Part shown: positions 10,636 to 13,110 of the stretch, in pieces | How the letters are laid out: each line of letters opens with the position of its first letter | How positions within the stretch are numbered: position 1 is the stretch's first letter | Assembly (NCBI GenBank): GCA_016840315.1 | Contig: JAEOSO010000002.1 | Coordinates: 1-40,714 of the forward strand | From: Candidatus Borrarchaeota archaeon | GTDB taxonomy: Archaea; Asgardarchaeota; Sifarchaeia; Borrarchaeales; Borrarchaeaceae | Direction of reading: 5' to 3' | DNA: 40,714 nucleotides | Made by a program: the position numbers and the translations under genes | Notes under the pieces: model-generated | Database searches by the model: none | What the model saw: the letters and a program-made list of their open reading frames with translations, nothing else | Told to the model about the DNA's origin: nothing

Positions 10636-10830
10636 ATGATCATACCCGTTCGTTGTTTCACTTGTGGAAAAGTAATTGGAGATAAGTGGCTATTCTTCTC
10701 TCAGAAAATAAAACAAGGTGATTCTCCAAAAGACGTATTAGATGAATTAGGCGTAACGAGATATTGCTGTCGAAGAATACTTTTAAGTCACGTTGACCTA
10801 ATAGATGACATCCTACAACTAATGCGATAA
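10636..10830 (+). CDS. rpoN: RNA polymerase subunit N (Rpb10 homologue)
   Basis: 64 aa: [18 protein letters not shown]...[26 protein letters not shown]. Confidence 0.9.
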
Positions 10831-11028
10831 ATTCTGAATGATGTAAGTAGGCAATATAATAGGAAAAAGTGCACTGTAAAAATAATGCAGATTTATATGG
10901 AGCCCTAGTGGCACTAATTCTGAGCAGAATACCCTCTCTCTATTCTAGATAAATGTTCAGTTCTTAAGTGTTGGAATGTATTTGAACGTAAATATGAAAT
11001 CATAGGATAGTAAAAAGGAGGAGAAGAA

Positions 11029-11838
11029 ATGGTAGATAAAAATCAGGTACCACCCGTTAAACTTATGTCTGATAAAGGTACCCGAATTGACGGTCGTAAA
11101 TTTAATGAATTAAGACCAATTCATATGGAGATTGGGGTGCTTAAAACGGCTGATGGATCAGCCTATGTAGAGCAAGGAAGAAATAAAATCTATGCGGCAG
11201 TATATGGCCCAAGAGAGTTACATCCGCGTCATTTAGCACTTCCCGATAAGGCTCGTGTAAGATGCATCTATCGAATGGCAACTTTCTCAGTAGAAGGCAT
11301 CCAATTTCTTGAAATTGCCTGCTGAAATGAAAGAAAAAGCCCTGCTCCAAGTAGAAGGGAACATGAATTATCAATGGTCATTCGAGAATCATTAGAGCCT
11401 GCCATTTTTTCCATCATGTTTCCTCGAACCGCTATTGATATTTATATCGAAATTGTGCAGGCGGATGGTGGAACTCGATGTGTTGGCATCATTGCTGCAT
11501 CTTTAGCTCTTGCAGATGCAGGAGTACCATTAAAAGATTTAGTAGCAGGATGTGCGGCTGGAAAAATTGACGGTACGCTTGTTTTAGATCTCAATGACAC
11601 TGAAGATAAATGTGGTGAGGCGGATCTTCCTCTTGCATTTATGCCTCGAACAAAAGAAATTACGTTGCTTCAAATGGATGGCTCACTTTCGCCAGAAGAA
11701 TTCAAAGATGCCACAAATTTGGCTATAACTGGCTGTGAAGAAATTTACGAAATGCAAAGAGAGACATTGAAGAAAAAATACGCAGAAAATCGTGATGAGA
11801 TAAATTCTGAAAAAACTACAACCAAAGAAGGTGACTGA
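11029..11838 (+). CDS. rrp41: exosome complex exonuclease Rrp41, interrupted by an in-frame TGA at 11323-11325 inside a candidate BHB intron
   Basis: Exon 1 [24 protein letters not shown]...[29 protein letters not shown]; exon 2 [65 protein letters not shown]. Same frame, separated by about 33 extra nt containing TGA. Confidence 0.85.
11282..11333 (+). other. bulge-helix-bulge-like RNA fold at the candidate rrp41 intron
   Basis: CTTTC-TCAGT-[AGA]-AGGCA-[TCCA]-ATTT-cttg-AAAT-TGCCT-GCTGA-[AAT]-GAAAG. All helices complementary with one U.G wobble; 3-nt bulges on opposite strands. Confidence 0.7.
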
Positions 11839-11839
11839 A

Positions 11840-12643
11840 ATGGTTAAATCTGCGAAAATACTTTCTGAAATAGAACAAAACTACATTGAAAAACTAGTAA
11901 ATAAAGGTACGCGTATTGACGAGCGTTCGCTAGACAGTTATAGGGATATTACAATAAAGACAAATGTTATTGAAAAAGCGAATGGTTCAGCCGATTGTAC
12001 TTTAGGTAATACCAGAGTGGTTGTAGGAGTTAAACTTGAATTGGGCACACCCTTTCCTGATATGCCCGATGAGGGCGTAGTTACCGTAAATGCTGAACTT
12101 GCACCAATTGCTTCACCTTTCTTTGAAAGTGGACCTCCCACAGAAGTAGGCATTGAATTAGCGCGAGTCGTCGACCGAGGTGTGAGACAATCAAAAGCTG
12201 TTGATACAAAAAAACTATGTATTCTCAAAGGCGAGAAAGTATGGATTGCTTTTGTCGATATTTATGCTTTAGATCATGATGGAAATCTTATTGATGCATC
12301 TGCTTTGGCTGCTATAGCGGCTCTTTTAACAGCAAAAATGCCGAAGGTAGAGATCACAAAGGATAAAGAAATTCGTCTTCTTGAAGAAACAACGCCTCTT
12401 CCCGTAGTTGATCGTCCTATCGCAGTCACCCTAGCAAAATTAAATGGCGCTATTATAGTAGATCCTTGTCTTAAAGAAGAATTTGCAATGAGAGGGCGAA
12501 TAACATTCACATTCACTGAAGAAGGAAATCTTTGTGCTTTACAAAAAGGAGGAAATGGAACCTTCTTGCAATCTGAAATATCAGATGCCTTTGATAAAGC
12601 TAGAAATATTGCATCTCAGTTACGACAATTTTTACCCAAATAA
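11840..12643 (+). CDS. rrp42: exosome complex protein Rrp42
   Basis: NKGTRIDERSLDSYRDITIKTNVIEKANGSADCTLGNTRVVVGVKLELGTPFPDMPDEGVVTVNAELAPIASPFFESGPP; starts just after rrp41. Confidence 0.9.
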   Translation: MVKSAKILSEIEQNYIEKLVNKGTRIDERSLDSYRDITIKTNVIEKANGSADCTLGNTRVVVGVKLELGTPFPDMPDEGVVTVNAELAPIASPFFESGPPTEVGIELARVVDRGVRQSKAVDTKKLCILKGEKVWIAFVDIYALDHDGNLIDASALAAIAALLTAKMPKVEITKDKEIRLLEETTPLPVVDRPIAVTLAKLNGAIIVDPCLKEEFAMRGRITFTFTEEGNLCALQKGGNGTFLQSEISDAFDKARNIASQLRQFLPK

Positions 12644-12705
12644 CTTCGTTTATACAATCATTTTCGCCCTTTTTGGGGCCTCTTTAGCGCATCGTATATC
12701 TGATA

Positions 12706-13110
12706 TTACCGATAGGATTTCTGGAATCGCCGTCTAGCACCCCTTCCACCAAATTTTTTAGGTTCTTTTCTGCGAGCATCTGATACAAGAAGTGTTCGAT
12801 CGTACTCTAGGAACTTTCGTTTTATTTCAGATTTATCGGTCCACTCTAATATGGCTTTTGCTAAGGCAGTTCTAACGGCTTCCGTCTGTCCCATAATCCC
12901 TCCTCCTCTAACATCTACGTTTATATCTATTTTATTGATAATTTCTGGTCCAACAAGAAGTACAGGTTCCATGACTTTCCATCTACATAACTCTGGTTCG
13001 AATATTTCTAAAGGAATCTTATTTATTCGTATTTTACCGTTACCTGGTCTGATTATAGCCCGTGCAATCGCAGTTTTCTTTTTTCCTGTTGTCAATATCA
13101 CTTTGGTCAT
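12706..13110 (-). CDS. rps9: 30S ribosomal protein S9
   Basis: TTGKKKTAIARAIIRPGNGKIRINKIPLE...VRGGGIMGQTEAVRTALAKAIL...C-terminal KKFGGRGARRRFQKSYR. Confidence 0.93.
   Translation of the reverse strand: MTKVILTTGKKKTAIARAIIRPGNGKIRINKIPLEIFEPELCRWKVMEPVLLVGPEIINKIDINVDVRGGGIMGQTEAVRTALAKAILEWTDKSEIKRKFLEYDRTLLVSDARRKEPKKFGGRGARRRFQKSYR

Follow-up and report, generated by a model that had tools for sequence, protein, structure and literature searches.

A predicted bulge-helix-bulge intron in the coding sequence of rrp41 in Candidatus Borrarchaeum, an Asgard archaeon

In Candidatus Borrarchaeum, an Asgard archaeon (PMC9723677), the rrp41 gene, which encodes a core enzyme of RNA degradation, is interrupted by a small insert that is very probably a short bulge-helix-bulge (BHB) intron in the coding part of the mRNA. 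Asgards are among the archaea closely related to eukaryotes. This is the best explanation of its sequence and position. The gene lies in a window of 40,714 nucleotides, the whole stretch of DNA that was analyzed, on a contig (C106) of a 1.70-Mb metagenome-assembled genome (MAG; G000) that is 77% complete. Cleavage, ligation and the exact cut sites are what we infer from these data, together with the subunit make-up of the tRNA-splicing endonuclease (EndA), which is read from its sequences.

The interrupted rrp41 gene and its relatives

The rrp41 open reading frame occupies positions 11029 to 11838 of the window, on the forward strand like all features given here. As the initial annotation had described, it reads as two halves in one frame, with about 33 extra nucleotides that contain a single TGA (11323-11325). 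In a profile search, the halves match positions 2-79 and 96-230 of the NCBIfam model for Rrp41, TIGR02065. They score 109 and 206 bits, both below the equivalog cut-off of 318.7 bits. The joined protein of 258 amino acids scores 361 bits over positions 2-230, which passes that cut-off. Its alignment to Rrp41 from archaeal exosomes of known structure is free of gaps, and one of these proteins reads FSTDERKNPAPSRRE where the halves are joined. Exon 1 (11029-11293) would hold codons 1-88 and the first base of codon 89. The predicted intron, AAGGCATCC...GCCTGCTGAA, would span 33 nucleotides (11294-11326). Exon 2 (11327-11838), which starts with AT|GAAAGAAAAAGC, would supply the remainder of codon 89 through the stop. 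The next gene of the operon, rrp42 (11840-12643), is not interrupted and scores 340 bits with NF003282 (cut-off 280). A short direct repeat, AGTAGAAGG, is present at the 5' splice site (11289-11297) and again in exon 2 (11350-11358), and both copies are invariant in the genus.

Among the relatives compared, the rrp41 genes nearest to that of G000 are in three genomes of the same genus (G001, G002, and G003). G001 matches Ca. Borrarchaeum weybense JAHQJS010000003.1 by sequence. The four are genomes of separate species, and their Rrp41 proteins are about 83-85% identical. In all four, the same codon is interrupted. The insert measures 33 nucleotides in G000, 31 in G001, 33 in G002, and 32 in G003, so that the lengths cover all three frame classes. 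One fixed pair of sites, by which AAGGC...GCTGAA is removed, gives FSVDERKSP in every one of them; the initial annotation had proposed that removal of 33 nucleotides would restore Rrp41, and this sequence is among those it had suggested.

No second, intact rrp41 was found in any of the four genomes, including G001, which is 100% complete in eight contigs. Ratios of dN/dS between members of the genus are about 0.16-0.23 for exon 1 and 0.12-0.19 for exon 2, which shows that both exons are under purifying selection. Within the spliced reading frame, the longest block without any difference among the four genomes covers 47 nucleotides and includes the junction, and the second longest has 20. Together, the shared codon, the varying lengths, the lack of an intact copy in these genomes, and the selection on both exons favor the BHB intron that was first suggested from the window.

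A match to rrp41 at E<=1e-25 was obtained in 213 of the 227 Asgard genomes searched, and no other interruption at the site was seen among the matches listed. In the sole other genome of the class (G004), rrp41 is intact. The affected codon encodes E, Q, S, P, G, or N in intact relatives, so the aspartate that splicing would create there is unremarkable.

Fold, predicted cut sites and splicing enzymes

The minimum free energy (MFE) fold of the rrp41 RNA is a bulge-helix-bulge in all four members of the genus, with the three helices and the opposed 3-nucleotide bulges that the initial annotation had drawn for the window. The 5' strand of the outer helix, CUUUC (11282-11286), pairs with GAAAG (11329-11333). 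In the MFE form the central helix has five base pairs, UCAGU:GCUGA. Its core consists of CAGU (11288-11291) paired with GCUG (11321-11324), and U11287-A11325 is the possible fifth pair. The 5' bulge, AG^A (11292-11294), has its predicted cut at 11293/11294 and is invariant in the four rrp41 inserts as well as in 13 introns of cbf5, discussed below. The inner helix joins AGGCA (11295-11299) to UGCCU (11316-11320), and its last pair is absent in G001 and G003. The 3' bulge, AA^AU (11325-11328), has its predicted cut at 11326/11327; its first residue, A11325, may pair with U11287.

The initial annotation had warned that canonical cuts would remove 34-35 nucleotides and leave the gene out of frame. 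This holds for the register with five base pairs, in which such cuts do miss the frame. The difficulty disappears when the central helix is taken as CAGU:GCUG, the same register rule as in the cbf5 introns. Cuts two nucleotides beyond each strand (AG^A and AA^AU) then remove 33, 31, 33, and 32 nucleotides and keep the frame in all four genomes. Cuts shifted by one nucleotide on both sides (11295-11327) would give an identical mRNA. Compared with the strict motif of a 4-bp central helix and 3-nucleotide bulges, the MFE form has five base pairs and two 3-nucleotide bulges, and when it is read with four base pairs the 3' bulge has four nucleotides. The predicted rrp41 fold is thus a relaxed form of the BHB motif. 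The form with four base pairs is about 2.5 kcal/mol weaker than the MFE form, and for the in-frame register the enzyme would have to ignore or open U11287-A11325.

Folding z-scores for the four members of the genus are -2.2 to -2.7 on a core of 57-59 nucleotides. A longer stretch of 76 nucleotides from the G000 window alone gives only -1.05, so the fold energy by itself is unconvincing. An alternative 7-bp helix, UCAGUAG:CUGCUGA, was considered and rejected, the BHB fold being better by about 2 kcal/mol. In 1.54 Mb of the genus, both strands included, BHB motifs with a central helix of 4 or 5 bp occur about once per 3 kb of strand. From the same scan, the chance of a BHB with the right span at a given place, within 1 nucleotide, is about 5e-5. 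The initial annotation had looked to relatives for either the insert itself or covariation of its fold. The insert is there in four of four, and the helices show no compensatory change: they are almost invariant apart from an extra U-A pair in the outer helix, and covariation therefore cannot be claimed for rrp41.

In the proposed mechanism, the exon strand CAGU (11288-11291) of the pre-mRNA would pair with the intron strand GCUG (11321-11324). EndA, probably as a heteromer, would cut two nucleotides beyond each strand, at AG^A and AA^AU, and free 31-33 nucleotides. Ligation by RtcB would then restore codon 89 (G|AU, Asp) and allow synthesis of full-length Rrp41. The insert shares with EndA substrates the two bulges on opposite strands around a short central helix, with outer and inner helices on either side, and in the CAGU:GCUG register its predicted cuts are in frame. 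The genome also encodes a splicing endonuclease and an RNA ligase.

Each genome of the genus has two paralogs of the EndA family (PF01974). Paralog 1 is of the catalytic type: it most resembles the catalytic subunit of the Aeropyrum pernix (alpha-beta)2 enzyme and keeps the DHS histidine region. Paralog 2 is without that histidine. From these sequences, the EndA of Borrarchaeum is probably heteromeric. In paralog 1 of G000 (EndA alpha, L046), K-P-K aligns with K44-P45-R46 of the CSL of the A. pernix enzyme. A loop that aligns in this way to the 'Crenarchaea-specific loop' occurs in an Asgard EndA. The lysine of the A. pernix loop underlies broad specificity (PMC6379350, PMC12397907). RtcB was found in three of the four genomes, and the fourth genome is 69% complete.

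Most tRNA genes of G000 are oversized (L159, L163, L167, L171, L175, and L179). Seven of the eight matches above the cut-off span 89-113 nucleotides, which is consistent with many introns, and some of these may be tRNAs with long variable arms. Many tRNA introns have been reported in other Asgards (PMC11291895). Several of the G000 genes have inserts in the variable region or the D-loop and not at 37/38. Because many are outside 37/38, exact BHB rules are not derivable from them. ARAGORN found almost no tRNAs, presumably because of the introns.

Introns in cbf5 and searches of the genomes

The gene for the pseudouridine synthase Cbf5, long known as a host of mRNA introns in archaea, is also interrupted in Borrarchaeum (f1; G000, G001, and G003), in Asgard families f6, f7, and f12, and in G051 (f16). 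A full cbf5 was not found in G002, which is 69% complete. Thirteen BHB introns of 17-41 nucleotides were identified at the codon for the catalytic aspartate (L206, L207, L208, L220, and L244-L252). Canonical cuts, AG^A and NN^A, give L-D-P at this aspartate in all 13, and the junction, G|AT or G|AC, is at a site identical to that of the crenarchaeal cbf5 intron. The in-frame canonical junction in every case suggests that such introns are truly excised in these organisms. The cbf5 folds also covary. In a set of 11 distinct sequences, standard pairs make up 95.5% of the pair cells, and six of the 12 pairs have changes on both strands. Covariation scores 0.486 in the real alignment; shuffled alignments give 0.259 (0 of 500 reached the real value), and slid structures give at most 0.182. 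The 5' site of rrp41, CAGUAG^A, is like the CNNUAG^A of cbf5, where the same U.G pair is often found. The cbf5 introns obey the same register rule and, with their covariation and shared UAG^A 5' site, give independent support to the reading of the rrp41 insert as an intron.

Two further observations concern cbf5. G051 has two copies, one uninterrupted (C13, L243) and one with a BHB intron of 17 nucleotides (C131, L252); these could come from two organisms in one MAG. The matches in G020 (C9), G045 (C60), G046 (C30), and G049 (C1) are split at model position 166-174, approximately, by a long open frame of 836-902 amino acids, which suggests that these four genes contain inteins.

When the four genomes of the genus were searched for further copies of the rrp41 intron, the only hit was rrp41 itself. 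A blind scan for a BHB together with a joined reading frame covered 1.19 Mb of G001 and 0.35 Mb of G000, and it recovered rrp41 in both. By eye, the others among the first 30 grouped candidates looked like spurious frames or the usual junctions between genes. Proteins encoded in 0.4 Mb of G007, a distant Asgard genome, were also used as tblastn queries; 126 of them had a strong hit, and no other split genes were revealed in those stretches. Both scans are bounded by strict BHB rules and partial genomes, and cbf5 of G000 and G001 is outside the scanned stretches.

Alternative explanations and known systems

An mRNA that is not spliced could still give a nearly normal protein by programmed translational bypass, with take-off at the GAA after GTA and landing at the GAA before AGA. 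The take-off and landing codons are both GAA, a stop is near, and variation in the length of the insert would be tolerated. The product, FSVERKSP, would however be one residue short: in each of the 15 intact relatives examined, FSV and R are separated by two residues. Splicing gives the full residue count. Bypass also leaves the BHB fold, the UAG^A shared with cbf5, and the invariant exon strands of the helices unexplained. It is disfavored, with a small chance of being correct.

The unspliced sequence is broken, and the second half has an ATG at 11374 with which it could begin, so the gene could be a pseudogene or a split gene whose halves are made separately. The initial annotation had named a decayed gene with an intact rrp41 elsewhere as evidence against the intron, but no intact copy was found in the genomes of the genus, and selection on both exons is purifying. 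The DNA from the insert to the ATG is fully conserved, though a start at 11374 would omit it. This explanation is very unlikely, even less probable than bypass.

Recoding of UGA as selenocysteine or otherwise, with translation of the insert, has a precedent, as both selenocysteine and pyrrolysine recoding have been described in Sifarchaeia, Ca. Borrarchaeum among them (PMC9723677). The inserts of G000 and G002 are each 33 nucleotides with one in-frame TGA. Those of G001 (31) and G003 (32) shift the frame, and recoding therefore cannot explain the insert. Its sequence aligns with nothing in other Rrp41 proteins, and no Rfam match was found in 10700-12800 at E<=5. The chance left to recoding is close to nil. 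An assembly or sequencing artefact is just as improbable: all four genomes are MAGs, but the insert is common to four species at the same codon, with different inner sequences and lengths, and errors would not be expected to produce a BHB fold. A group I or group II intron or an intein was rejected, with an insert of 31-33 nucleotides, no Rfam match in that interval, and an insert frame that is not open in all genomes.

The BHB intron thus remains the preferred reading. In the open-access literature consulted, the only intron experimentally established inside an archaeal open reading frame is that of cbf5 in Crenarchaeota (PMC2738675, PMC7714728). The initial annotation knew of no intron in rrp41, and the open-access literature yielded no earlier report of one, of any Asgard mRNA intron, or of the Asgard cbf5 introns. 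With rrp41 as a second host gene and cbf5 introns across Asgard families, splicing of protein genes by the tRNA enzyme may not be a crenarchaeal oddity, and archaeal mRNA splicing seems to extend beyond the few cases on record. A more far-reaching and rather doubtful possibility is that EndA-dependent introns in protein genes are a spreading class in Asgards. Several families would have such an intron in cbf5, at the site known from Crenarchaeota, and Borrarchaeum would have acquired another in rrp41, where the sequence UAG|AU matches, perhaps through transfer from an existing intron or by reverse splicing. Expression of an RNA-decay enzyme would then depend on the tRNA-splicing machinery. Questions are raised as to how introns of this kind move, how many archaeal genes have been wrongly annotated as broken, and whether common ancestry, transfer, or repeated insertion accounts for the cbf5 site that the lineages share. 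Genes of this type are split or truncated by ordinary gene callers.

The rrp41 insert can be compared with several known systems. The BHB sites in the HVO_1309 mRNA of Haloferax (PMC7714728) also concern an mRNA processed by EndA, but they are in the 5' UTR and not in coding sequence. The tRNA introns of Atabeyarchaeia and Freyarchaeia (PMC11291895) presumably depend on the same enzyme and are at many non-canonical positions, whereas the rrp41 intron would be in an mRNA. The crenarchaeal cbf5 intron (Watanabe 2002; Yoshinari 2006; Yokobori 2009, PMC2738675) is similarly short (16-44 nucleotides), is in a reading frame, and has a BHB-like fold. It is cut between the second and third bulge residues, is linked to a hetero-oligomeric EndA, and falls between the first and second bases of an aspartate codon, as is predicted for rrp41. 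The rrp41 insert differs from it in the host gene, in an aspartate that is not catalytic, in a central helix that can be 5 bp, and in its Asgard host. The cbf5 introns of Asgards are present in its genus (f1) too and share with it the UAG^A 5' site, a U.G or U-A pair by the 5' bulge, and a G|AU or G|AC junction. Their motif is strictly 4 bp with 3-nucleotide bulges, whereas in rrp41 the 5' strand contains an additional U.
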